From NCBI GenBank assembly GCA_029964075.1, contig CM057149.1, positions 20,350,197 through 20,414,196 of the forward strand: a DNA stretch of 64,000 nucleotides, read 5' to 3'. This stretch comes from Patiria pectinifera (Eukaryota > Echinodermata > Asteroidea > Valvatida > Asterinidae). Positions 1 through 30,933 of this stretch are shown here, in pieces (the first letter of the stretch is position 1; every line of letters starts with the position of its first letter). The notes beneath the pieces are model-generated. The model was not told the DNA's origin. It searched no databases and worked only from the letters and a program-made list of their open reading frames with translations. A program made the position numbers and the translations under genes.

Positions 1-485
1 TTGCAAAAAAGGTCATGTCATGCTTTCTTCAGCATTCCAGTTTTGATTAAACATATTGTACATATGTATGTGTGCACATGAGTGCCTGTACTATGTACAT
101 GTGTTTGTCTTTCATACTCATTGAGGAGTTGTGCTCTTACACACACCAACGCTATGAGGAGTTTTTATTGTGTGACCAGTAATTTGAGGAGCTCCTCGAA
201 CTTTCATGTGCATTAAATCGATTCCAGAGGGCGCTGTTCATCAATTTTTCGTCACTTTAAAAAACTCCTCAAATTTACTAGAGTCAACATAATTTTTCTC
301 GAATTGAACGCTTACGCGCGAGCAGTGTGTGTTTTTCTGATGGACTCGTGTTGAATAGCGCCCTCAGGGAAACTCCTCGTTGTGGTCGTTTTATTTCGCG
401 CGCTTTCATGCATGCCAGATATCCGAGTTCTAGTGTAGCGGCCGGGAAGGCTGCTGAGCCGAGTGCTGTAAAAAAACAACGAAAA

Positions 486-606
486 ATGGCACCAGTAAGA
501 CGAAAACAGCGGAAGAAAAAGGACCAACAGGAGGAAGCCCTGCAATATGTTAGATCAAGCAGCGATCGTGTTGGAGACTTCAGTGTCCGCGACACAAAAC
601 TAAAAG
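486..606 (+). CDS. SET-domain methyltransferase-like gene, exon 1
   Basis: This exon encodes a basic N-terminus (MAPVRRKQRKKKDQQ) that leads into the first strand of a KMT5A-type SET domain. It ends in the middle of a Gly codon at the donor GTAAGG (607), a phase 1 intron. Exon 2 supplies the other two bases, so the junction reads LKG-RGVFA, the expected GxG start of a SET domain. I chose the ATG at 486 because it has A at -3 and G at +4. The frame is open further upstream, and an in-frame ATG at 408 is an alternative start. KMT5A-family enzymes monomethylate lysine on histone H4 or other proteins. Whether this copy is active is unknown. Confidence 0.72.
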
Positions 607-649
607 GTAAGGCCCTACACTACAGTGGAAAAGGATATTATAAACGGTA

Positions 650-912
650 AACTCGCCCCTTACGCCATGCTTACTGACTCGCCCCTTACCGACTCGCACT
701 TTTGCAACTCGTCCCCTGGCCGACTTGCCCTTTGACCCTGGGGAGTTTGATGGCTATAGGGCCTAGCCTAGGCCTACAATGTATTGGTAAGAATTCAAGA
801 ATGAGAATAGGCCTAGGCCTACCGGCATGACCGGTAGGCCAACTCGTACACGAGTCAACTCGTACGCAACCAACTCGCACGCAGGACGACGCGTATGTGA
901 ACCAACTCTAAC
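650..912. repeat. Degenerate array of ACTCG/CAACTCG words
   Basis: The sequence is dominated by short words such as ACTCGCC, CAACTCG and ACTCGTAC, in no strict period. An internal AGGCCTA-rich patch covers about 760-840. It lies just inside intron 1 and shares the word ACCAACTCG with the arrays near 2380-2500 and 3985-4560. Confidence 0.55.
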
Positions 913-1166
913 GCATGAGTTAAAAAGTAGCTAAATTGAGTAGGCCTACCCGCGGAAATTTTGATTTTATTTTATAAATGGTCTTTTGATTTGTGACTGG
1001 GCCTACATGTATGTTTCATTAAAGTTAATTGGTGGGAACTTTTTTTTATTTTGGGGAAATGCCTTCATGATTAATAATAATATGAATTAAATAGACCTAA
1101 TAAATCTCTTTTTCAAATGATTGTTGGCTTATTTTGGGATGGAAGTTTATGTTTTGTAGCCTAGTA

Positions 1167-1926
1167 GTACTATACGGTCCTAATAAAGCGCGTCAACAAG
1201 CGTCAACAAGTTTTAGTAGTCGTTAAGTGCGCGTCAACAAATTTTGTATAGGCCTTTGAACAATAAAAACAGCTTTATATGGTAGAAAAAGCAATAATGA
1301 ACATCTTCTGCATATCAATTAAAGTTAAAATTACTTAAAAGTGGTTTTCCAGCCGAAATCTACAACGGATTTTTCGATTTAGTATTGGCCGCCATCTTGT
1401 TTGAGATCTACGTACTACGCATGCGTGGAGTGTACCATTCACGCATAGGGTTTCTTTATAGGAAATTAGGAAAACTATTTTTTTTTCAATTATAAATTAT
1501 GCAAAACTTGGTCACGGTACTTGGCTAATTATTTGAAAAATATGCTTACCGACACTCTTTACAATGTCTGCCAAAAAATCCCAATGCAAAAACCAAACGA
1601 GGTATCGCTAAGCGTATCGTATAAAGAAACCCCTATGCGTGAATGGTACACTCCACGCATGCGTAGTATGTAGATCTCAAACAAGATGGCGGCCAATACT
1701 AAACCGAAAAACCCGTTTTAGATTTCGCGCTGGAAAACCACTTTTTAAGTAATTTTAACTTTAATTGATATGCAGAAGATGTTCATTATTGCCTTTTCTA
1801 CCATATAAAACTGTTTTTATTGTTCAAAGGCCTATACAAAGTTTGTTGACGCGCACCTAACGACTACTAAAACTTGTTGACGCTTGTTGACGCTTGTTGA
1901 CGCGCTTTAGTAGAACCCGTACTATA
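1167..1926. mobile_element. Foldback DNA transposon with 8-bp target duplication (hAT- or P-like size)
   Basis: Two arms of about 280 bp (1175-1458 and 1622-1918) are near-perfect reverse complements, separated by about 160 bp of AT-rich sequence. The element is flanked on both sides by the exact 8-mer GTACTATA (1167-1174 and 1919-1926). The outer arms carry CGTCAACAAG subterminal repeats, two on the left and three on the right, plus one diverged copy on each arm. There is no coding capacity. The 8-bp duplication fits hAT, P or Merlin transposases. The termini (CGGTCC and its mate GGGTTC) are not the usual CA start of hAT, so the superfamily is open. Confidence 0.82.
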
Positions 1927-2169
1927 GGCCCAAAGTTGTATTTTTGGGGATTAAAGATGTTGGCTTACTCTATAGTATCATGAGTATTGTGAAACCTCAC
2001 GAGAATGGATGAACATTACATTGTATAGAGTACGGGGAAGCAATTTAGATTAATGAAAACTTTGGAAACGTTCACAACTTTTGTAAAGGAACTCACACAA
2101 GCTGTCGGTGTTTTCATGAAGGGAATTTCGTAAATCAAATTTTCCGACATCCCTTTTTCAGCTGAAATA

Positions 2170-2242
2170 AAATAGCCCTAACAGTCCTGAATCCTCCAAT
2201 TTCCATATGATTTTGCACACCCCTTAGGGAGTTAAGGTTATG
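2170..2242. repeat. Short cassette with CCCTAAC / TTAGGG-like ends
   Basis: It starts CCCTAACAGTCCTGAATCC and ends CCCTTAGGGAGTTAAGG. It is closely related to 6266-6345, and its ends match the longer cassettes at 26423, 29181 and 30934. Confidence 0.55.
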
Positions 2243-2379
2243 TGAATATGGTTTTGATTGTTTAAGGAAAACACTGTTCACAATTACAAAGAAATTTCAT
2301 TCAAACGGAGAGAAGTCTGCTGTATTGGAAGAGTATAACTTAATTTTTTTCCCCTTAACTTTAACTTTTTGTTTGTTCC

Positions 2380-2500
2380 CGCGTACGAGTTGGTTCACAT
2401 ACGAGTTTGCATGTGTACAAGTTAACCAACCCGCATACGAGTTGTTCGCGTACGAGTTGGTTCGCGTACGCGTTGACCTGTCCCCAAATTCAATAGGCAT
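2380..2500. repeat. Array of TACGAGTTGGTT words
   Basis: About six diverged copies of a 16-24 bp unit built on GTACGAGTTGGTTCGC. It is the opposite strand of the CAACTCG words in the arrays at 650-912 and 3985-4560. Confidence 0.55.
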
Positions 2501-2573
2501 GCAATTAAAGACCAACTCAGACCCAGATTAACTTGGACCCAGAACAATTTTGGCCTACCCCTACACAGCTATA

Positions 2574-3225
2574 GGGTTAGACCTAGTCCGAGTAACTTGG
2601 ATTCAAATATCGCCTGTTTAACGTTGTTAATGTTAAAGCATCAGACCTGCATAATGTTTTCCTGGTGATAGTAGGGTCCGAGCCGATTGGCATATAATGT
2701 GGATTCTGGAATATTAAAAAATGACTAACAACCAAACACTTTACCAAGAAAACATCTGTTTGCACAATCAAAACGACCACATAATTACTAAATACATCCC
2801 ATGAGATACTATGTAGGCATTCATTGTTAAGACTGAGGTGGTAAGGTTTTCTTATGATCAGGATAAAAAGTGAAATTTATCGTTCAATTCCAAGAGCTCC
2901 TCGTGCAACATGCGATTGAATGATGTATTGCGATGCATTGTGGTTGGTCGATACTCCCAGTTCATAAAATGGTCCCAACCGCAATGCCGTTATACAGTGC
3001 ACGATGATCGGTCGAGACCATTTTATGAACTGGAAGTATTAAACTGGTCATTTTGATGGTGAAATCGTATGGTTTTTGGGTAAAGTGTTTGGTTGTTAAT
3101 CATTTTTTTATATCGTGGAATCTGCATGATATTCCAATCAGCTCGACCCTGCTTTTGCCAGATACCACAACCGAATGTTGAAAAAGCAATACTTGGGTCC
3201 AAGTTACTCGGACCAGGTTTGCCCG
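2574..3225. mobile_element. Foldback element, family A copy 1
   Basis: The terminal inverted repeats read ACCTAGTCCGAGTAACTTGG on the left and the complement of ACCTGGTCCGAGTAACTTGG on the right. The arms extend inward through AAATAT and TTAACATT(C)GG-type sequence. No convincing direct repeat flanks it, and the boundaries are good to about 10 bp. It is related in sequence and arrangement to the element at 3363-3979. Confidence 0.65.
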
Positions 3226-3362
3226 AACTGAAACCCTATCAATCGTTATCAATATGAATTAAACTACATTCACAAATCCATTCGATGGTACAGGTCACTT
3301 TCAGCCAATCCACTAAATGTTTTGCCCCTAAACACTGTCATGACTGTTGAGTTACTGTCTCT

Positions 3363-3979
3363 GCTAGTCCGAGTACTTGGACCCAAATATCACATTTTCA
3401 ACATTCGGTCGTGGTCTGGCCATAGTAGGGTCCAAGCTACACTCTTACGCTGTCAGACCTTTGCTCGAAATGAACAACAACCCAACACTTTGCCACAAAA
3501 ACATCTGATTTCAGATTACACCATCAAAATGGCCTCAAAACTAGTAGGGGATTGATGACTAAGACTGAGTTGCTAAGGTTTACTTACATGTATGAACAGG
3601 TTGAACAATTAAAATTTACCGTTTAATTCAGAGAGTAGTGCATTTTAAAATAATTTTATGGCTGCGACAACAATGTGATTTGGAGCTCTCTCAGAATTAA
3701 ATGGTAAATTTCACTTTTGCATCTGGATCGTTCGTAAACCTTAGCACCTCAGTCTTAATCATCAATCCTCTACTTGTGTCTCATGGGACGTTAGTAATTC
3801 TGTGGTTGTTTTGATGGTATGGTGAAATTGGATGTATTCTTGGCAAAGTGTCTGGTTGTTAGTCATTTTTTAATATTCCAGAATGTGCTGTTGGCAATTG
3901 GCTCGGACACTACTATCGCCAGACCACGACCGAATGTTAAAAAGCAAACATTTGGGTCCAAGTTACTTGGACTAATAGC
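3363..3979. mobile_element. Foldback element, family A copy 2
   Basis: The ends are GCTAGTCCGAGTACTTGG and CCAAGTTACTTGGACTAATAGC. The inner arms share TTCGGTCGTGGTCTGGC with its complement near 3925. The interior carries a second pair of arms (AAGACTGAGTTGCTAAGG and complement). It shares both ends and interior words with copy 1 and lies 138 bp from it in intron 1. Confidence 0.65.
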
Positions 3980-3984
3980 TGACT

Positions 3985-4560
3985 AGGGGAAATTTAGGCC
4001 CAGGCCCAGACGATCTCGGACCCAGACCAACTCAGACCTAGACCAACTTGGACCCAGACCAACTCAGAGCCTACATTTGTACGTGTACATGGTAGCCCAA
4101 TACAGGCCCAGACAAATTCCAACCCAACAACTCAGATCCAGACCAACTCGGATTCAGACCAACTCGGATCCAGACCAACTCGGATCCAGACCAACTCGGT
4201 TCCAGACCAACTCGGATCCAGACCAACTCGGATCCAGACCAACTCGGTTCCAGACCAACTCGGTTCCAGACCAACTCAGTTCCAGACCAACTCGGACCCA
4301 GACCAACTCGGACCCAGACCAACTCGGATCCAGACCAACTCAGACCTACATTTGTACGTGTACATGGTAGCCCAATACAGGCCCAGACAAATTCCAACCC
4401 AACAACTCGGACCCAGACCAACTCGGACCCAGACCAACTCGGATCCAGACCAACTCAGACCCAGACTGACTCAGACCTACATTTGTACGTGTACATGGTA
4501 GCCAAATACACGCCCAGACCAATTTTGACCCAACCACTCTTACCTAGACCAACTCACGTG
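3985..4560. repeat. 15-16 bp minisatellite (CCAGACCAACTCGGAT)
   Basis: Tandem units CCAGACCAACTCGGA(T/C) vary at the last bases. They are interrupted by three copies of a longer block that begins ACATTTGTACGTGTACATGG (near 4073, 4349 and 4481). Both strands stay open over 300 bp because of the short period, and I do not regard those frames as genes. The unit resembles the AACTTGGACCCA end of the neighbouring foldback family. Confidence 0.85.
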
Positions 4561-4936
4561 GTGGTAGCCCAACACAAACCTACATGTAGCCCAATTCAGT
4601 TTAAATAATAGAACATACCGGTAGGCCTACATGTAATCTCTTCATGTACAATTTGGTAATTCTCATTACAGTAGCTTGCATTTATGCAGTTTGTTCGTCG
4701 TCTTTGGCACAAGTTAAACATGTTGAAAATCCATATTTTATCCTTCTTTAGGAAAACAACGATAACCGCCTAAATTTGATACAATTTGGAGCCAATGGCA
4801 CCTTTGATTTGTACATGTGCACTATGCAAATATATTTTAGATGCATGTACAGCTTTAAAGGTATTATAACTTGGGGAAAGAATGTGATTGTGTACAATGT
4901 ACATGTAGGCTCTTAACTGTTAATGCTGGGAAAAAA

Positions 4937-5108
4937 TACGGGCAATTCACAATAGTGTGCCTCCAAGAGTTTGCAACGAGTTGGCCAATCACAATGCGCG
5001 AAATCAGTCGACCTTTTCCAAACGCACATTGGGTCGACCGATTTTGCGCATTGTGATTGGCCAACGCGTTGCAAACTGTTGGAGGCGCGCTATTGTGAAA
5101 CGACCGTA
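4937..5108. mobile_element. TA-flanked 170-bp hairpin element (Tc1/mariner-like size and target)
   Basis: The arms (about 4937-5010 and 5030-5108) are almost perfect complements, including GTTTGCAACGAGTTGGCCAA and its mate. The element starts TACGG and ends CCGTA, so a TA dinucleotide lies at both borders. It has no coding capacity. Confidence 0.75.
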
Positions 5109-5550
5109 TTGTGTTAGAATTTATGAATTCAAGAATAAATGTGAATGTGTAATTTATTAAGTTCAATCACTTTAACAACCTGCAGGCTTTGTTGTTACTT
5201 GAAATATTATTAGTCAGGTTGGCATCCGTTGGCATTCCCTTCTTCCATGTTGTTACCCGCCTTCGAATCCGGCCTGAGCCAACATGGCCAATGTGCGGAT
5301 TTGGTTATCAGTCCTCCAGTGATATCATGGGATTTTTGGTTTTTCCCAATATATTTTTCTAAGGTTAATAAAGCCAGCCTTTAAAACTCTACCGTCTTCT
5401 TATCCAGAAAGAATTAAAGATGGTACTTTCAACATGTATGAAAGGATAGACATTTGAATATTCAAGCACATGTGGATACAGTGAACTTCTTGGACACACT
5501 ATTTTTCTGTATTTCTTGGTTGTAATGTATTTCATAACTTCTGTTTACAG

Positions 5551-5704
5551 GGAGAGGGGTGTTTGCTGACAGAGATTTTGATGCAGGGGAGTTTCTCATG
5601 GAAAATGCTGGGGAGCTGATTTCCGCAGCAGAGGGCGAGCGCAGAGAGGAAACTACAGACAGTGTCTTCCGGTATTTCTTTACCAGCAGGGGCAAAGGTT
5701 ACTG
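5551..5704 (+). CDS. SET-domain gene, exon 2
   Basis: The exon encodes GRGVFADRDFDAGEFLMENA, then GELISAAEGERREETTDSVF and RYFFTSRGKGY. This is the N-terminal half of the SET fold with the Gly-x-Gly cofactor loop and the EGERREETTDSVFRYFF stretch typical of KMT5A (SET8). The acceptor is TTTACAG ending at 5550. I place the donor at GTACGT (5705), because only that site lets exon 3 continue in frame and recreates the family's GK-x-YC followed by (V/I)DAT. The nearby GTAAGT at 5709 would lead to an immediate stop. The exon is 154 bp, phase 1 in and phase 2 out, with no stop or frameshift. Confidence 0.88.
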
Positions 5705-5869
5705 GTACGTAAGTTGTGAAACTGTCATCAGTCAAATTTTGTAGTAATCGGTCATCATGTTTGTGGATTAAATTAATTTAGTCCTATAACTGAGCCAAAC
5801 TAAGTGTTGCGATCTGTTAACTGGTTGACAGCAGTACTTTCTAATCTCTAGATAGTGCGGGAACCAACC

Positions 5870-5924
5870 AAAATACCCAGATGCGTAAAATAATAAAATA
5901 TTATTGTACGCATCTGGGTATTTT
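5870..5924. repeat. Small perfect hairpin
   Basis: AAAATACCCAGATGCGTA (5870-5887) is repeated as its exact complement at 5907-5924, with a 19-bp AT-only loop. It lies in intron 2. It could be the remains of a miniature element, but no target duplication is visible. Confidence 0.7.
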
Positions 5925-6156
5925 AGCTAAATTATTATTGCAGTCATCCGTACGAAGGCATACAATATGCTGAATAATAATAGAGAAAATAAGTCGTGCA
6001 TATGCACCGTCGTTCTCAACTTTAGTCACAAAGAGCACTGGCCAACATCGGCTGTTGCTATGCGCATTGCTCAACCACTGCCCTTGCCTCCCAGCCATGT
6101 GCGACCGAAGCACGTGCTTCCACAGAAAAATCAGGGTGACACATACATGTATCGTC

Positions 6157-6157
6157 N
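6157..6157. other. Ambiguous base (N)
   Basis: A single N inside intron 2. It does not touch a coding exon. Confidence 1.
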
Positions 6158-6265
6158 AGTACGCGTGAAAAATCAGCCACATAATTCCATTATAATGGAG
6201 GGAAAAAAATGTTTTTGCATTCTATAGCATTTTTGTGTAAAAAAGTTGATTCATTTTAAAAACCA

Positions 6266-6345
6266 TGATTAACCCTAACAGTCCTGAATCCTCCAAAATC
6301 AATATATATAATTTTGCGCAGGCCTTAGGGAGATTAGGGTATGGT
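6266..6345. repeat. Short cassette with TTAACCCTAAC / TTAGGG-like ends
   Basis: It starts TTAACCCTAACAGTCCTGAA, contains TCCTCCAAAATC, and ends CCTTAGGGAGATTAGGGT. It is close to the cassette at 2170-2242. It lies in intron 2, about 200 bp before exon 3. Confidence 0.6.
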
Positions 6346-6548
6346 TGCTTTGCCTTTGACAATAGCCCCAAAATGCAGGGTAGAAAGGCCAATTACAGTA
6401 GACACCAAGGCCAAGGGCTCTTTTGTAAGGGCTTTTTATTTTTAATAAAAGTAAAAATTAGGAACAAAATAACAATTATTGCTCTTTTATTTTATGTATA
6501 CAGTGTACATGTACATTGTTTTTCTTTTTTGGATTGTATTCATTGCAG

Positions 6549-6756
6549 TATTGATGCAACATCTGAACCAACAGAGGGGAAGCAACTTGGGCGCTTAGTT
6601 AATCATGGTGATTTGAAGGAGGCCAATTCCAAGATGAAAGTCATCATGGATGGGGACAAACCAACACTCTGTCTGTTCTCCATTAAACCCATCCAGAAGG
6701 CAGAGGAAGTGTTATATGATTATGGGATCAACAAGTCTCCGTGGAAGACTGAAATG
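6549..6756 (+). CDS. SET-domain gene, exon 3
   Basis: After the acceptor CATTGCAG the exon encodes IDATSEPTEGKQLGRLVNHG and later EEVLYDYGINKSPWKTEM. RLVNHG corresponds to the R(L/I)(I/V)NHS motif and LYDYG to the catalytic tyrosine motif of KMT5A-type SET domains. The serine of NHS is a glycine here. The post-SET end keeps the PW found in relatives of this family. Phase is 2 in and 0 out, with the donor GTATGA at 6757. The preceding 280 bp are open by chance and are intron. Together the three exons give 161 codons with no lesion. Confidence 0.88.
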
Positions 6757-7377
6757 GTATGAACACGTAGTTTTACAATGTATGGGCATTAGGAAATAAC
6801 ATTGTGAGGGCCTGGTTGAGGCGAGGACCATTAAAATTGGGTTGCGTTCAACTCACACGAACGTTTGCAAACATTTGCCAAATTTTTATACACATCCTAT
6901 AGAAAGCTGTTCATGTAGTTGGCAAATGTTGGTAAGTTAAACACACCCCAGGTCTGTTGTGACGCAGTGAAGACATGGTCGTTACACTGTTTATTCCCTT
7001 TCGCCTAATAAATACCATTTTAATGAAATGAACAGTGATAATGCTAAAAATGTGTGACTTTTTTGTTAGTGCTTGTGTTTTGTTAGTGTTCAGGGACCAT
7101 ATTTCAGCTAAATACACGGTACCCTGTCTCTTCAATCTGTGTTTGTATTATTACTCACATGTTGCCAGAATCTGGCCAGTAATACAATAGGATATGAGGC
7201 TGATATGCTGTGAAAATTGTCTGTACGCTTCAAATTTTCATAGCAGCTTTGAAAATTGCACACTGCACTTCCTTCCAAAATGTCTACATTGTGTTGACTG
7301 TCTTTGCGATTGAAAACTTGGATTTTTGACCTTATTACTTGTACTTTTGTAAGTTTTGTAACCTTCTTAGGACAAAA

Positions 7378-7485
7378 CCAATAGAGGTTATGCGTTAAGG
7401 CGAAGTTAGAGGGCAAACCTTTGTATAAATTAAAATAACACACGAAACCCTCTAAGATGGCCGCAACGCATAACCTCTATTAGCA
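7378..7485. repeat. Inverted repeat in intron 3
   Basis: AATAGAGGTTATGCGTT at about 7380 is mirrored by AACGCATAACCTCTATT at about 7466-7482. The arms extend to GTTAGAGGG and CCCTCTAA. It looks like a 105-bp miniature foldback element. No target duplication was found. Confidence 0.6.
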
Positions 7486-7778
7486 ACTATTGCAACAAAG
7501 CAAGATGTTTTAATGCTCTCTTGTCAGACTACACATGGTGTTTGAATGTTATATATTATATGGTACATACCTGCACAGTTGGAACACTGTACTATTTTTT
7601 AATTGTCATTTTGTTATTAAGTTGGTTTTGGTATCAGTATGTGCCAAGTCCGATTCCTGTATGATGAGTCGGAACCCGAGTCAACAGGTGAAGTCTTAGT
7701 TTCAGAACTTGCTTTGTCTTACACTTATTTCTACACTTGAACAATTATAAATGATTATTATTATTTTATTTTTTTCAG

Positions 7779-8804
7779 AATACACCAGCTTCAAGTAGAA
7801 AACCCGAAGCCTCAAGTGAACCACCTGAGGCTTCTAGTGGACAACCTGTGGCTTTCAGCGGAACACCCGAGGCTTTCAGCGAAACATCCGAGGCTTTCAG
7901 CGGAACACCTGAGGCTTTTAGCGGAGCACCCGAAGCCTCAAGTGGATCACCCGAAGCCTCAAGCGGAACAACCGAAGCCTCAAGCGGAACAACCGAAGTC
8001 TCAAGCGGAACAACCGAAGCCTCAAGCGGAACAACCGAAGCCTCAAGCGGAACAACTGAAGCCTCAAGCGGAACAACTGAAGCCTCAAGCGGAACACCCG
8101 AAGACTCAAGCGGAACACCCGAAGCCTCAAGCAGAACACCCGAAGCCTCAAGCGGAACACCTGAAGCCTCAAGCGGAACAACTGAAGCCTCAAGCGGAAC
8201 ACCCGAAGCCTCAAGCGGAACAACCGAAGCCTCAAGCGGAACAACTGAAGCCTCAAGCGGAACACCCGAAGACTCAAGCGGAACACCCGAAGCCTCAAGC
8301 AGAACACCCGAAGCCTCAAGTGGAACACCGGAAGCCTCAAGCGGTACAACCGAAGCCTCAAGCGGAACAACCGAAGCCTCAAGCGGAACACACGAAGCCT
8401 CAAGCGGAACATCCGTGGCATTCAGCTTACCACCGGAGGCTTTCAGCGGAACACCCGAGGTTTTCAGCGGAACACCCGAGGTTTTCAGCAGAACACCCGA
8501 GGCTTTCAGCGGAACACCCGAGGTTTTCAGCGGAACACCCGAGGTTTTCAGCGGAACACCCGAGGCTGTCAGCGGAACACCCGAGGCTTTCAGCGGAACA
8601 CCCGAGGCTTTCAGCGGAACTCCCGAGACTTTCAGCGGAATGCAACAGCTGTCTGTTGTCATAGAAACATCAGAGCATCTTCCTTGCACATGTAATCCTG
8701 TTGATTTGTCAGAAATTGCACTGGACTCGGATGATTCATTGACATTTGCTGAGAGATTAGATGACAGGTTTATCCACCTCAATGGATCAAGAATGTCCAC
8801 GTAG
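7779..8804 (+). CDS. SET-domain gene, exon 4: Ser/Thr/Pro/Glu heptad-repeat tail
   Basis: The acceptor TTTTTCAG ends at 7778 and the exon enters in phase 0, matching exon 3. It begins NTPASSRKPEASSEPPEASS and then runs through about 40 heptads of the types EASSGTT and EAFSGTP. It ends in an acidic unique stretch (EIALDSDDSLTFAERLDDRF) before TAG at 8802. With exons 1-3 this predicts a 502-residue protein: a SET domain of about 150 residues plus a long, probably disordered tail rich in possible O-glycosylation or phosphorylation sites. The same frame continues beyond the TAG into conserved-looking sequence, so the TAG is probably a nonsense mutation in a once longer exon. Confidence 0.7.
   Translation, partial: NTPASSRKPEASSEPPEASSGQPVAFSGTPEAFSETSEAFSGTPEAFSGAPEASSGSPEASSGTTEASSGTTEVSSGTTEASSGTTEASSGTTEASSGTTEASSGTPEDSSGTPEASSRTPEASSGTPEASSGTTEASSGTPEASSGTTEASSGTTEASSGTPEDSSGTPEASSRTPEASSGTPEASSGTTEASSGTTEASSGTHEASSGTSVAFSLPPEAFSGTPEVFSGTPEVFSRTPEAFSGTPEVFSGTPEVFSGTPEAVSGTPEAFSGTPEAFSGTPETFSGMQQLSVVIETSEHLPCTCNPVDLSEIALDSDDSLTFAERLDDRFIHLNGSRMST
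7806..8647 (+). repeat. 21-bp coding minisatellite, about 40 units
   Basis: Units read GAAGCCTCAAGCGGAACAAC(C) with small changes. Three blocks are visible: mixed units to about 7925, GCCTCAAGC units to about 8410, and GCTTTCAGC units to 8647. A higher-order duplication is visible at 8095-8165 and 8266-8333. As the period is a multiple of three and has no stop in most frames, long shadow frames exist on both strands. Confidence 0.95.
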
Positions 8805-10770
8805 GCAGCTGGAACTGCCCAAGTAGACATCTATAGAGACATCTCTAAACAAGTATCAGGACCAGAGAACCCTAAGGTAAATTTGTTGGTTCATGTATCT
8901 GACAACACAGCTCAACTTGGTCTAGGTCCCCATAAGCCACTTGCTGGTAGTGGAAATGAATCTGATGCTGATGGGATGTCTGTCGAGGATGAGGATGAAT
9001 CCAGTGTGTATGAACCCTCAAGATGGAGTGAAGAGGATTCAGTGTCATCTGACAGCAGCGAGTTGTCAGACAATTTGGATGAATTTCCACAAAAGAGGTC
9101 TTGTACAACCAAGGCTAAGGTTCCAAAATCTGGGATTGTGTCTTTTTCAAGTGAATCTGATTCTTCAGAATCAGCTGAACAAGGCACAACTACCAGTAGT
9201 TCCAAAGTAACACCAGCCAGCACTTCTTGCGGTTCCAAGCGTACATGTAAGAACAAAGAGAATATATCACCTCGAAAAAGAGGGGAAAAGTGCAAAGGTA
9301 AACAGAAATCTGTTGTGCAAGAAAATATGCTTGGGTAGTGTCCTCAGCAAACACTGCCAAAAAGGACAAAGGGTGTGGGACAAAAGACATTACTGCGTGT
9401 TTTGTCTAAAACCTACAAAAGTTGTCGAAACATTGGGAGGACAAACATTCAGAAGAAAGTGAGGTCGGAAAAATATTTGCGCTTGAAAAAAACCAAAGAG
9501 AGAAGTCACCTCATTGCAAATTTGAGAAAAGCTGGTGACTACGAACATAATAAGAGAGTGTTGGCTGGTGAGGACAAAGGTGAGCTAATTGTTCATAAGC
9601 GGCCGAACTACGGTGACAAGTCTAAAACCAATGAGTACATGTTTTGTTCAGATTGCCGAGGCCTTTACAAGAAAAAGGCTCTCTACAGACATAAAAAAAT
9701 GTCCTCAGCGTAAAAGGTACAAAAAGGGTTCCAGACATATTAGAGCAGGGGCAGCCCTTCTGCCAATACCGCATGATGTCTCCAGTTGTCTAAAAGGTGT
9801 ACTCAGAGGAATGGAGCAAGACCATATCACCATAGTTGCCAGAATGACCCCCTAATTATGAAACTTGGTGAGCATTATGCTGCTGCTGCAGGGCATACTA
9901 ATAATAGTAACCACTACATTGCTCAGAAAATGAGGAAGCTTCACGTTTACTGTCTGCTGCACGTAGCCTCAATGAACGAATCTGTACTGCAAAGGACTTA
10001 GTCCTTCCAAGAAACTTTGACATTGTTGTTGATGCTGCCTTGAAATGTTCAAGGTTTGATGACACAACATTTCAGTTTTCCACTCCATCATTGGCAAGGA
10101 AACATGGCCACATACTTAATAGGTAAATAGTAGACGCTGAAGCCCTGAAAACGGGGGTTTTTGTTGATGATGGGCAAAGTGCAGCAGGCTTTAAACGACT
10201 CATGCAATCAGAATGGAGTACAAGAGTCTCAGGTCATGCATTAAGACAGGCGAGCGAGGCCAAATGGAATGAACCACAAAGGCTGCCGCTACACAAGATA
10301 TAATGAAATTGCACAAACACATGCGTGAAGAAGAGCACAGGCTAAAATCTCAAATACGACAGTCTGGAATTTCAGGGGAGAGTTTTACAAAGTTAGCGCA
10401 AGTAACACTGGCACAGCTAATTGTGTATAACAGAAGACGGCCAGGAGAAACACAGTTTCTGAAAGTGGAAACTTACCAAAAGAATGTAGCACGTGGAGTA
10501 GATGCTCATGGTGACGTTATGGAATCATTGTCCCTGTCAGAGAAACTGTCTATTGACAGGTTGTCCCTAGTGTATATACGAGGGAAACGAAATAGAGGAG
10601 TGCCACTTCTTTTCACTCCAAAGATGAGAGAATCTGTTGATATCTTGGTTAGTTCACGAGAGCAAGTTGGGGTTCATCCCGAAAATCCCTATGTTTTTGC
10701 ACGGATAAATGCAGATGCAATGGGTCCACACAGGGGATGTGACTGTTTGCGGATGCTTGCAAAAATGTAA
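8805..10770 (+). pseudogene. Decayed zinc-finger plus tyrosine-recombinase-like 3' part of the SET gene
   Basis: The frame of exon 4 continues after TAG 8802 through an acidic Ser-rich linker, a second TAG (9336) and a basic segment to 9700. That segment has a C-x2-C...H...C finger (CSDCRGLYKKKALYRHKK, then CPQRKRY in the next frame). The finger is broken by an A7 run at 9696-9702. Further single-base losses near 9842, 9940 and 10290, and TAA at 10124, interrupt a recognisable protein. Its last open part (10303-10770) contains LIVYNRRRPGET, resembling the box I arginine motif of tyrosine recombinases. It also contains IRGKRNRGVPLLFT, resembling the beta-hairpin lysine segment, and ENPYVFAR and GCDCLR. 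The HxxR and Tyr part that should follow is absent. From memory, the same order (SET, finger, recombinase-like) occurs in multicopy fish proteins. That recollection could not be checked here. Confidence 0.72.
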
Positions 10771-11500
10771 AAAAAAAAATCCTAGCACACTGATTTTCTA
10801 GATTCAGTCAAGAACTGTGAAATATAAAAACACCTGTAAGTGCATGTATGTATCATGTGCTGGGATGGTTTTGTTCATGTGTTCATTCAAGATACATGTA
10901 ATTATAAATACATGTAATTATTAACAGACCTGTTATTTGTTGTATTTTCTCCTTTTCACTCATCCCTTCAATCGATCTTGATTTCTGTTTTTGACATCAG
11001 AAAAGTTGGAACCTACAGTGTATTCATTAATGTGTGTTTTAATTAGTTTATAAAAAAAAAACATAATTAATTACTTTAATGTTCAAGAAATATGAGTTAC
11101 CAAAGAATTTGAAAACGCTGTTTCCTAGTTACCCCAGAACTTGGAAGGAAATAATGACACATTTCAGTTTAATGTACTTTAAAAATGGTTGTGATGATAC
11201 ATGACAAAACAGGGAATTATACATGTAGTTCCACATGTTGAGATGGTCATAGAATACAAGTTGAGTTTTATTTTGTATAGTTATGTTAACTCACAAGAAT
11301 GAGTGAATGAGTGAGTTTCAGTTTTAAGGCGAGTCTCGACACAAAACAAAATTAGTTGTATCATATTGAGGAGTTTTGACAGTGTGTTGCTAAAAGTGTC
11401 TTGAGTACAAAGTATCTGATTACTATGAGATCATTTTTTGCAAATTTTTGATTATGCAAAAATGCTACATGTATATCCTTCTCTTATTCCCCTTAAGCAT
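10771..11500. other. Non-coding spacer after the pseudogene
   Basis: AT-rich sequence with an A12 run right after the last open frame, and ATG-rich ACATGTA words. I searched it by eye for the missing recombinase C-terminus (an HxxR-like or R-x-Y-like coding stretch) and saw none. Confidence 0.5.
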
Positions 11501-11776
11501 CACTACGCTACATGTCAGTTGATTGCAACATTTTTGGACATTGTGACCAGGTTCATTGTGACCGTAATGATTTCAGTGCTGTGTTATGAAAGCTGTTGAA
11601 GATCATTTTTTTGTGAAAAGGGCTGCAGTCGGGATTAGAATCATCTGCCTGGTTATTAAATTGACGGATCATTCCAATTGCAAAGTATTCTAGCTTTTTT
11701 TTCCACAGCATCCAGGATTTTACGCAGCTTGGTCACAGTGTTCAAAATGTTGTGATCAACTGACCATTGCGCAGTG
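11501..11776. mobile_element. Foldback element of 276 bp
   Basis: The left arm GTCAGTTGATTGCAACATTT (11514) continues to GACATTGTGACCAGG. It is mirrored by GGTCACAGTGTTCAAAATGT and TGATCAACTGAC ending near 11764. The outermost CACTACGC and GCGCAGTG also pair. There is no coding capacity and no clear target duplication. Confidence 0.6.
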
Positions 11777-12004
11777 TTGCGTGACTAAAATTAATTGAAA
11801 CTTGTAAGGATTTTTCACGTTGGCAAGGATAGGGAGTATCTGCTGACTAAACAAATTTCAAAATATACCAGGCACATGTATATTGTGGGATTTGATACAC
11901 AGGACAAAGTGAGGAGTTGTAGTTTTAATTGTTTTGATTCACAGGACAAAATGAGGAATCGTAGTTTTAACTGTTGATTCACAGGACAAAATGAGGAGTT
12001 ACAG

Positions 12005-12357
12005 TTTTTACTGTGTTATTATAGTTGGGAGATTTGTGATGTGATTGACTTCTATGATAAAGGCATGGAATTTGGCACACAGTCATAGTATGTCATTAGA
12101 ACTGGCTATGGAGCCATCAAAGATTTTTACTTTGAAAAATATAAGTATAATAGCATAAAATTTTCAAAATGGCTGCCATTGCATGTTATCCTACCCATAT
12201 TTTTCAAACAACAAATCTGCGATGGCTCCATATCCAAATATCTTTCCCATGACATACTAGGACTGTGTGCCCAATTCCATGCCTTTATCATAAAAGTGAA
12301 CAGTTCACATAACATTATATTGAGCACCGATCTCCTCGACTAATACAAGGGACAAAA
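12005..12357. repeat. Hairpin-bearing block, copy 1, inside the minisatellite
   Basis: The block holds an inverted repeat. ATGATAAAGGCATGGAATTT with CACACAGTC and ATGGAGCCAT at 12054-12119 is mirrored at 12219-12297, with a loop of about 100 bp. It is about 90% identical by eye to 12778-13140. The block looks like an element that was carried along when the minisatellite was duplicated. Confidence 0.8.
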
Positions 12358-12777
12358 TAAGGAGTTGTACATGTAGTAAACTGTGTTTATACACAAGACA
12401 AAATGAGGAGTATAGTTTTAATTGTGTTTATACACAAGACAAAATGAGGAGTTTAGTTTTAATTGTGTCTATACACAAGACAAAATGAGGAGTTTAGTTT
12501 TAATTGTGTTGATTCACATGACGAATGAGGAGTTTAGTCCTATTTGTGTTCATAAACAAGACAAAATGAGGAGTTTAGTTTCAATTGTGTTCATACACAA
12601 GACAAAATGAGGAGTTTTATGTGTTAATACAAAAGACAAAATGAGGAGTTTAGAATTTAATTGTGTTTATACACAGGACAAAATGAGGAGTTTGGCTTTA
12701 GTTGTGTTCATACACAAGACAAAATGAGGAGTTTATATTTAATTGTAATTTTACACAGGACAAAATGAGGAGTTACC

Positions 12778-13140
12778 GGTTTTACTGTGTTAATATAGTT
12801 GGGGAGATTTGTGGTGAGATTGACTTTTATGATAAAGGCACAGAATTTGGCACACAGTCGGAGTATGTCATTAGAAAGATAATTGGCTATGGAGCCATCA
12901 AAGATTTTTACTTTGAAAAAATATAAGTATAATAGCATGAAATTTTCAAAATGGCTGCCATTGCATGTTATCCTACCCATATTTTTCAAACAACAAATCT
13001 GCAATGGCTCCATAGCCAAATATCTTTCCCATGACATACTAGGACTGTGTGCCCAATTCCATGCCTTTATCATAAAAGGGATCAGTTCACATAACATTAT
13101 ATTGAGCACCGATCTCCTCGACTAATACACGGGACAAAAT
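12778..13140. repeat. Hairpin-bearing block, copy 2
   Basis: Same sequence and same orientation as 12005-12357, with flanking minisatellite units on both sides. The arms here are slightly better conserved on the left (GGAGATTTGTGGTGAGATTG). The antisense reading frame of 133 codons across it is a by-product of the repeat. Confidence 0.8.
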
Positions 13141-13561
13141 GAGTTGTAGTTTTAACTGTGTTGATTCACAGGAGTTGAGGAGTTGAGTTTTAATTGTGTT
13201 TATACACAAAACAAAATGAGGAGTTTAGCTTTAATTGTGTTTATACACAAGACAAAATGAGGAGTTTGGCTTTGTGTTTATACACAAGACAAAATGAGGA
13301 GTTGAGTTTTAATTGTGTTTATACACAAGACAAAATGAGGAGTTTAGTTTTAATTGTGTTTATACACACAACAAAATGAGGAGTTTAGCTTTAATTGTGT
13401 TTCACATACATGACAAAATGAGGAGTTGCAGTTGTACTTTTAATTGTGTTTACAAATCTGACAAAATGAGGAGTTATGGTATTTTGTGTTACATGCTTGT
13501 ATTTATTCTACATACATGGAAGAATATTAGACATGACTCTCGCTTATTTTGTATCCCAAAG

Positions 13562-13727
13562 GGCATGGGTGTTAGTTAAAATGGTCGAGTTGTGTAAAGA
13601 ATTTGGTATCGAAGGAGTATGTGGACAATATCAACAAGATTACTGGATGATTTTATATGACGAGTTGCAGGTTGCCTTCCTTGAATTTAACATTGTCAGA
13701 CGGGGATGGCCATGCAAAATTTACAAG
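13562..13727 (+). CDS. Unrecognised gene, penultimate exon
   Basis: A pyrimidine-rich tract ending TATCCCAAAG precedes an open exon encoding AWVLVKMVELCKEFGIEGVC, then GQYQQDYWMILYDELQVAFL and EFNIVRRGWPCKIYK. The donor is GTTTGT at 13728. The next exon joins in phase 0 and ends in a stop. The alternating hydrophobic and charged pattern (YWMILYDE, AFLEFNIV) would suit an alpha/beta fold of RRM-like size, as seen in some retroelement gag-like proteins. I do not recognise the family. No upstream exon was identified, because the minisatellite lies directly before it. It could also be a further 3' exon of the SET gene, though nothing in its sequence suggests this. Confidence 0.45.
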
Positions 13728-14053
13728 GTTTGTTTACAACTTTTATTTTTTTACATGTACTATTTATGTTTAAATTGATCCTGCATGGTTACATTAAAAA
13801 TCCACACATGTACTGTACATGTTAAGATAAAGTGCTGATTCCGAGGGTTTTTTTTCTTTTTCGAATAACCCTTTTTATAATTTATATTATATTGTTTATA
13901 ATCATGAATCAATGGACATACAGTGATTTTTCCCTTAATGTTGACTTATTTTGCTATTGTATCTAGTTTGATTGTGCTGATTGAGGTTCTGTATACTAAT
14001 TTTGACATTTAAGACAAAAGTAGCAGAAATTGTAATTCCTTTTTCAAATATAG

Positions 14054-14128
14054 CTGGACGATTTGTTGACACAGTTGTCAGCTAGCCACACTGCCAGACT
14101 AGATGTACCTGTACATGCTCCAACTTGA
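14054..14128 (+). CDS. Unrecognised gene, terminal exon
   Basis: After the acceptor CAAATATAG the frame reads LDDLLTQLSASHTARLDVPV then HAPT and TGA at 14126. It joins the exon at 13562-13727 in phase 0, giving a C-terminus of about 80 residues. A polyadenylation signal follows 380 bp later, as expected for a last exon. No function can be given. Confidence 0.45.
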   Translation: MDDLLTQLSASHTARLDVPVHAPT

Positions 14129-14505
14129 GAGTCATCTTGTTCCTTGTAGCGGAGCCAGTTCTTAGCCAGAGTTTCAATGGAGTCATACAAGTCCTGAACT
14201 TTTTTCTCGTTTTTAACCCGTTACGATCAACAAAATGCAATACATCAGGTTGTACTAATTTGTTTACTGATGTTAAGATTAATAATGTTTTGATGTGCTT
14301 CACAGTTCTTGATTATGTCAATGGGATACAGATTTTTTTTCTGAAGGCTTAGGCCACGTGACTTCAGATTGGGGTCGGGGAGTTCACTGCATTTATGAAA
14401 CACTTTTGTTCAATCATACTTGAGATGAATGCAACTGGTGTCCATGTACATGTACCAAGACTTCTGTAATAGCCTATTTGGAGTTGTGACAAAATGTGAA
14501 CTTGG

Positions 14506-14511
14506 AATAAA
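14506..14511 (+). promoter_or_regulatory. Polyadenylation signal AATAAA
   Basis: AATAAA about 380 bp after the TGA at 14126. A second AATAAA lies at 14592. Either could end the transcript of the unrecognised gene. Confidence 0.4.
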
Positions 14512-14599
14512 GTTTTGTACTTTTAATGTTTTGGGGAAAATAGTTTGTACCAGTTTTGAGCAGATATTTTGTAATTTCTCCGTTTTTAGAAAATAAATG

Positions 14600-16170
14600 T
14601 TTTCCTGTGTTTCACTGATAATTAAGTAACCAACTAATCATGTATCACTAACCGTTATTGTAACAACAATTGACTGAACGTGTAGTAATATATACTACAC
14701 TCTGCCTATCACTACTTATAGATGATACAAGAGAATTTGATCAAGAGTTTTGTAGTAAATGCTACACTGTCGGTCATTTGTTGTTACATCGGTTTGTGAG
14801 AGATAATCTTTCAAAGTTTTTTTATGAAGGCTTTAACTTCATTATAAAACGTACCCTTTTTCAATCATACATGAAGTGTACATTTTGACCATGCTTAAGG
14901 GTCTTTAAAATGTCCAAAACTGTTAGAGAATTAGAATGACAAATGGTGTTCATGAGAAGTGATTATAAAATAAAACTTCAGTATTGGTTACATTTCAATA
15001 ATTTTCACTGTGGTTTGTTTATGGAGTTATTTATATTTCACTTTGTCTAGAAAAATGAACTTCCTGCCATATAAACGTATTTTACATAAATATTGCCCCT
15101 TGTATCTGTTCTGACACCCCAGTACAATCACTTTTGAAGTTGTTTTTGACCGTTAAGTCCAGAATTCAATCCCTTGTGAAATATGGTGCAGTAACAAATA
15201 AGTCACGTGATCCGTGCGGCTGTATGTCATATTTCCTCCAATGAGCATTTACATTCACACACACTCACACACACAAGCTCACACCGTCATAATATTGGTA
15301 CAGTTCGAGACCACCTCGAAATGTAGGTATTGTGCTTAGGGCCTCGAATGGTATGCGGAACAAGTATGTGTGTGTGTACGTGTATGCACATTGTAATTAA
15401 AGTTGAGGTTTTCAATTTAGGGATTGAATTTACATGTAACTAATATAATACTTGAAATTGTAAGAAAATAGACAAAAAGGCATATAACCGGTATTTTTTC
15501 TACAATATGTGAGCTTTTTTTCAGAAGTTGACTTTTGTAATTTTTTTTAGGCAAAACTGTTTGAATAATTCACGATTTTGACATTTTTGCACAAGTGCTC
15601 ATCGGTTAAAAATAAATATATGCGATATAATGCTATAATTAGTATCCTGGAAAAACCCTGACAAATACAATGTACACTGTAGATAATCTCATCACATTGC
15701 ACAATAGTTATTTTTTGACAAAGTTGTCACAAAGCATGCATATTTTCGAGCAGTCCCCTTTGGTTGGCGCGATAGCTGTGTACAAAGTCCAACCACGGTG
15801 GAAATTCCCTCGAGACAAAATGCCAAATAGGAAAAATTGACTCCTTCGCATATTTAAGATCCTTCTAGGCTTGTAGGCAATATTTATTCAGCTTTAACTG
15901 AACGTTGATGTCTTTTTTATTTTCTTCAGTATATGACTACATGTATATAACAACCATGGAGTCGGGGGGGGGGAAGGGTAGGGGGAGATACCATAGGGTG
16001 TTTTTTATCATCTTGATGTTGCAACTGTTGTCTTTTTTTATTATTAAAATGACAATTAAATTATGGTTCCCGTCCCCCCAACCAGTGGGTTGCAGACATT
16101 AATTTAAAAAAATAAAACATTTGTTAAGAGGGGAAAAATTAATTTGTGGAAGAGCATGGGGAACACAACT
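14600..16170. other. Intergenic or intron sequence, no gene seen
   Basis: AT-rich. It contains a CA-rich microsatellite at about 15253-15290, GT words near 15367-15385, and a G-run at 15964-15971. No exon-like frame with splice signals was found on either strand. Confidence 0.5.
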
Positions 16171-30789: not shown

Positions 30790-30861
30790 GGCTGCATAGC
30801 TCAGTTGTTAGAGCACCGGAACGGTAATCCGGAGGTCAGAGGTTCTCAAATCCCTGCAGTC
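30790..30861 (+). tRNA. tRNA-like sequence, apparent anticodon GGT (Thr), probably a pseudogene
   Basis: The 72 bases fold with a complete 7-bp acceptor stem (GGCTGCA with TGCAGTC), a D stem (GCTC/GAGC), an anticodon stem (CCGGA/TCCGG) and a 5-base variable loop. The A box (TAGCTCAGTTG) is good. The T arm (AGAGGTTCTCAAATCCC) pairs poorly and breaks the B box, and position 33 is C instead of T. It lies in an intron of the plexin gene. A decayed tRNA or the head of a SINE is likelier than a working tRNA gene. Confidence 0.5.
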
Positions 30862-30933
30862 AATTTCTTAAAACGCACCAGTGGCACCTTTATTTAAAAG
30901 TTCTTTACTCATTAACCAAAATGCAAATATATC

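Follow-up and report, generated by a model that had tools for sequence, protein, structure and literature searches.

A probable DNA transposon of the sea star Patiria pectinifera that encodes a KMT5A-like SET domain and a tyrosine recombinase

The DNA considered here is a stretch of 64,000 nucleotides of the sea star Patiria pectinifera (assembly GCA_029964075.1, contig CM057149.1, positions 20,350,197 to 20,414,196), called the window in what follows, and its positions 100-15377 very probably make up a single defective copy, probably non-autonomous, of a DNA transposon 15-18 kb long that encodes a KMT5A-like SET domain and a tyrosine recombinase (YR). An earlier note, drawn from the letters of the window, had placed a composite gene at 486..10770, which is too short since the unit runs from 100 to 15377 (15278 nt, on the forward strand, as are all window features given below unless said otherwise). 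The first of the two origins that the note had offered, a mobile element that captured a SET gene, is upheld by nine copies that have common ends and mostly unrelated flanks.

Within the 613.5 Mb assembly that contains the window, the terminal window piece of the recombinase has 81 matches, nine of them, the window itself counted, at 97-100% identity. Nine copies were compared, namely WIN (the window copy), C1, C3, C7, C12, C20a, C20b, C22 and C166, the eight others being taken with their flanks. Alignment to the window starts at 100 in seven of these eight and at 93 in C22, and it stops at 15373-15377 in all eight, the other copies being 15.3-18.1 kb long. The multiple copies with defined ends that the earlier note had advised looking for thus exist, nine of them with almost the same two boundaries. 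Among the nine, identity over the end stretches is 98.7-100%, and the exons, introns and non-coding tail all fall within the matched unit of the dispersed copies. The 1-kb flanks are mostly unrelated, with short similarity in two pairs (91% over 144 nt and 74% over 132 nt). Left-end DNA occurs 15 times in the genome, ten times near-identical and five times at 76-78%.

The left end carries TGTG at 100..103 (TGTGTTTGTC in nine of nine copies), which is likely to serve as the recombination core. With the right ends of the nine copies aligned, a TG-rich end at 15367..15377 follows GGAACAAGTA, its last base not being exactly placed because of the TG tract. As regards terminal direct repeats of the 4-6 bp Crypton type, TGTG is at the left of all nine copies and the right end is TG-rich, variable and inside TG tracts. 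At least eight TG/GT steps are found in 13 of the 18 junction 20-mers, against 1.9% of control 20-mers. Terminal inverted repeats were not found, the first and the last 600 nt of the element being without detectable similarity. The flanks of C20b, when joined, give continuous matches at many other places (best 40 of 2104 candidates scored), and in the four of these matches that were read the element is absent and a short GT/G-rich tract stands at its position.

Three exons, at 486..606 (start codon and basic N-terminus), 5551..5704 (first half of SET) and 6549..6756 (second half, with NHG and YDYG), have standard splice borders and join in phase, as the earlier note had read them, into a complete SET domain (PF00856, E 6.6e-18, profile 1-105 of 105). 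By sequence search of the PDB this domain is closest to KMT5A/SETD8 (2.7e-18), with the first entry of another name at 3.9e-12. The SET exons are present in all nine copies, frame-broken in C22 and altered in C20b, and at the MEYAGEL motif of exon 2 there is Asn in WIN, C1, C22 and C20b and Tyr, as in KMT5A, in the other five. Among seven of the nine copies (C22 and C20b left out) the SET changes number three synonymous and four non-synonymous, against about 102 and 381 sites.

The recombinase exon, 8805..10771, is broken in the window copy by stops, by frame switches and by deletion of its 3' part. Its open pieces over 8805-10770 exceed chance, the longest being reached by 3 of 1000 dinucleotide shuffles and the sum of the top three by none of 1000. 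The motifs reported before are all there, that is the box I arginine motif YNRRRPGE (10426..10449), the lysine hairpin motif GKRNRGVPLL (10582..10611) and a C2HC zinc finger (9645..9702, a pattern seen by eye, without a library match), the finger however straddling a frame switch in the window copy. What does not hold is the single frame that was to run from exon 4 into finger and recombinase, as a TAG at 8802-8804 ends exon 4, and stops at 9336-9338 and 10124-10126 together with frame switches lie behind it. A box II was sought in the window and nothing convincing was seen, because about 713 nt holding it (TATRLRKH, LGHN, REYYR) are gone at the deletion point 10771..10772; the last three catalytic residues (R, H, Y) are accordingly absent from the window copy itself.

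An open recombinase reading frame of 900-901 codons is found in C12, C20a, C3 and C7, the exon being broken in WIN, C1, C22, C20b and C166. The intact frame reads as an acidic and serine-rich region, a C2H2-like finger, the C2HC finger, the YR motifs and a basic tail, and all four intact copies have the YR signature in the expected order, R (NRRRPGE), K (GKRNR), R (TATRLRKH), H (LGHN) and Y (REYY). The same R-K-R-H-Y recurs in two more distant relatives, of which the C14 one has 78% identity in the recombinase region and the C20 one 37%. When four family rows (three after redundancy filtering) were aligned by hhalign to a YR profile made of 72 recombinases from viral contigs plus XerD, the score was 37.9 (E 2.6e-4), the alignment spanned the lysine hairpin and box II, and none of 200 column shuffles reached that score, the best giving 22.9. 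Changes among the four intact frames are ten synonymous and 15 non-synonymous, against about 588 and 2115 sites, and the non-synonymous divergence (dN) between the C12 and C14 recombinases is 0.28, the synonymous value (dS) not being computable. Taken with the SET counts these figures point to constraint on both YR and SET, on few changes. In PDB, Pfam, NCBIfam and PHROGs the recombinase part had only weak matches, which were taken as chance; one of them was to a designed repeat protein at 3e-4. Neither the viral and prokaryote contigs nor two motif scans gave relatives of the window pieces. By eye the basic, helical tail that follows the YR resembles a Myb/SANT domain, and it has no library match.

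Linkage of SET and YR was also counted across the genome. For 55 SET exon-3 matches in the genome, and with 74 YR matches counted after seven second fragments were removed from the 81, a YR lies downstream on the same strand of 28 within 8 kb, 31 within 15 kb and 37 within 40 kb. Upstream the corresponding numbers are 0, 2 and 4, and the opposite strand gives 0, 0 and 1. Placing the matches at random, with an assumed size for some contigs, gives on average 0.29 SET-YR pairs within 15 kb and at most three in 500 trials. Every one of the 15 left-end matches has a SET match 2.9-8.1 kb inside, and 14 of them also a YR match 10-41 kb inside. In the C20 relative (C20:15719512-15723588, L117+L116) one open frame, 1359 codons long, takes in the last exon of SET, repeats, both fingers and the complete YR. 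The pairing of SET and tyrosine recombinase in one unit, as first proposed, is supported by R-K-R-H-Y in the intact copies and the 37% relative and by the one-frame arrangement of the latter. Over half of the SET and YR matches listed sit on C7, one of the chromosome-size contigs, where older copies are strongly clustered. An exon-like open piece that lies upstream of the C14 recombinase, on the reverse strand of L115 at 792-1124, resembles by eye a B-box zinc finger, and is perhaps another captured domain.

How the SET and recombinase parts come to be expressed turns on exon 4 (7779..8804), an array of 7-amino-acid (21-nt) repeats which would join exon 3 in phase 0 from an acceptor before 7779, as the earlier note had it, and which ends in the TAG at 8802-8804. 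In all eight copies measured the array has a length that is a multiple of three and no internal stop. Decay was considered as an origin of the TAG and dropped, since nine of nine copies keep it. The TAG supplies an AG directly before 8805, the end of exon 3 and 8805 are both in phase 0, and the polypyrimidine tract before 8805 is poor; in the C14 relative the recombinase frame opens just after an acceptor-like TTTGTTTCATAG. Since the TAG coincides with a potential splice acceptor, exon 3 may be spliced straight to the recombinase exon, and alternative splicing would then give either SET with repeats or SET with recombinase. A tentative alternative, rather unlikely in our estimate, is that one element makes two proteins, SET with the repeats in one and the recombinase in the other; the universally kept TAG and the intact array frame of those eight copies both lend it support. 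The one-frame SET-YR fusion of the C20 relative argues against two proteins, as do the shared phase 0 with an AG immediately before 8805 and the C14 frame, which also begins behind an acceptor-like TTTCATAG.

The damage carried by several copies bears on how they moved. WIN, C1, C22 and C20b have the box II deletion in common and lie at different genomic places, and therefore they most likely dispersed after the deletion, presumably moved by the recombinase of another copy; the stop at window position 10124 is common to these four and to C166. Descent from a host family of KMT5A-like genes, duplicated and with a recombinase taken in as a DNA-binding module in the way that ZMYM2 or QRICH1 did with DUF3504, is improbable. 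Such a family would fit the kept introns and SET exons and the few SET changes, which suggest constraint, and PMC10368294 regards families of this kind as genes, with embryonic expression of many. It fits poorly with ends that the copies share exactly, with their dispersal among mostly unrelated flanks and with repeat copies that are empty, and the catalytic R-K-R-H-Y is kept here, whereas it is lost in DUF3504 genes according to PMC3212892. Least probable is an element moved by some other enzyme acting in trans, for instance a DDE transposase or a Helitron, with the recombinase as cargo, for although this would account for the dispersal of the window copy and three others despite their loss of half the recombinase, there are no terminal inverted repeats, the outermost 600 nt are dissimilar, a Pfam search of 10 among the longest open frames that lie outside the gene detects no other transposase, and the recombinase is open in four of nine copies and constrained between C12 and C14 (on the dN given above, dS not being computable).

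A number of observations weigh against the transposon reading, or against parts of it. No listed YR is found downstream within 15 kb for 24 of the 55 SET matches, or within 40 kb for 18, and a few pairs (2 of 55 within 15 kb and 4 of 55 within 40 kb) have the YR upstream. The hhalign probability is only 42%, and the window piece alone gives 7% with a score that 1 of 200 shuffles reached; the recombinase region is unmatched in Pfam, NCBIfam, PHROGs and PDB profile searches, and single-sequence AlphaFold2 of 10273-10770 gave a mean confidence (pLDDT) of 36, a model too weak for a fold search. The histidine of the box II HxxR is Thr in this recombinase. As to the insertion sites, the left flank of C20a is not TG-rich (one TG/GT step in 20 nt), those of WIN, C3 and C22 are only moderately so, and the empty sites for C20b belong to a dispersed repeat and are not alleles. 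In the SET exon of the C20 relative NQ and CNYG stand in place of the window's NH and YDYG, which argues against methyltransferase activity there and suggests its loss in a relative whose recombinase stays intact.

Ends, copies, gene content, catalytic residues, the common deletion and the one-frame fusion of the relative are observed directly, and a working scheme can be built upon them. The transposon gene would encode the KMT5A-like SET and the YR, with a linker, either repetitive or acidic, and two zinc fingers between them. From intact copies a first product probably consists of SET with a tail of 7-amino-acid repeats, ending at the kept TAG, and a second, made when exon 3 is spliced to 8805, is probably a SET-zinc fingers-YR protein of about 1060 amino acids. 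The YR would probably excise the element as a circle, and for reinsertion a TGTG-type core at the element junction would probably undergo strand exchange with TG-rich tracts. Where the second half of the YR is lacking, as in the window copy, the copies would be moved in trans by intact ones. The weakest step of the scheme concerns the SET domain, which probably acts on, or binds, histone tails at the donor or target chromatin.

Several known systems resemble this element in part. KMT5A/SETD8, a histone H4 lysine-20 methyltransferase, is the best SET match, and its NH and YDYG are kept in the window copy; in contrast to that enzyme the SET of the element is N-terminal, not C-terminal, and belongs to a dispersed element and not to a single host gene. 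SETMAR, a SET domain fused to a mariner (DDE) transposase, likewise combines SET with a transposon enzyme, but it is a single domesticated host gene and not a moving element, and its SET is a weaker PDB match than that of KMT5A. A 2022 study of chromatin-protein evolution reportedly describes chromatin domains captured by transposable elements. Multicopy fish proteins may share the SET-recombinase order, which serves as a lead only. Among open-licence PMC papers, gone through by titles and the starts of abstracts, no SET-bearing tyrosine-recombinase transposon was found, PMC9406493 being unrelated. By mechanism the nearest transposon group is that of the Cryptons, of which the element is a possible member in the strict sense. 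As described in PMC3212892, these are likewise DNA elements encoding a YR, with no terminal inverted repeats and with non-autonomous copies; they insert with a short shared core, as the present element may do, and those of animals have neither a C-terminal domain nor terminal repeats. The present element differs from them in its 15-18 kb, its introns, its SET domain and its zinc fingers, and the Pfam model of Crypton-derived proteins (DUF3504) does not match its recombinase region. DIRS, PAT and Ngaro elements share a tyrosine recombinase and, in some, a zinc finger (in Gag), according to PMC4157794. Unlike them the element keeps introns and has no split or inverted terminal repeats that could be seen, and in the window copy 10 among the longest open frames lying outside the gene gave no match to a reverse transcriptase profile (Pfam).

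A wider relevance comes from KMT5A-like genes of other animals, of which PMC10368294 counts 65 in Hydractinia, 24 in Hydra and 61 in sea urchin. There the SET is mostly N-terminal in Hydractinia and urchin, long genes of these two share C-terminal ends, and the families are treated as host regulators, the word recombinase being absent from the main text. As described, these families fit the element and may be the same thing. About evenly balanced, in our judgement, is the larger proposal that a KMT5A-type SET and a YR are encoded together by a whole, ancient class of animal transposons, that sea urchin, Hydractinia and Hydra have copies of it in their large KMT5A-like families, and that with histone-methyl chemistry or reading of its own the element selects or opens chromatin or escapes silencing. 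If this were so, "extra methyltransferase genes" of other animals may be transposons and not host regulators, and embryonic expression of expanded H4K20-methyltransferase-like families could be transposon expression. A transposon with its own histone-modifying domain would also allow direct study of chromatin manipulation during integration. Because the copies here have spread recently and have clear ends, the questions of chromatin manipulation and of family expression are testable.

The rest of the window calls for brief description. The 3' non-coding part of the element, 10772..15377, contains tandem repeats at about 11892-13490. Outside the element, an Rfam tRNA match of 37.3 bits at 30790-30862 was not called by ARAGORN. 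Intron 1 has a 16-nt tandem repeat of the AGACCAACTCGGATCC type at 3992-4603, the source of long but repetitive open frames. It also has, at 4935-5110, a 79-nt inverted repeat with an 18-nt loop that forms a hairpin like that of a miniature inverted-repeat transposable element (MITE). A long inverted repeat at 1176-1917 of the same intron, with 151-nt arms 97% complementary and a second 100-nt pair inside, looks like a foldback element or MITE that inserted within the larger element.

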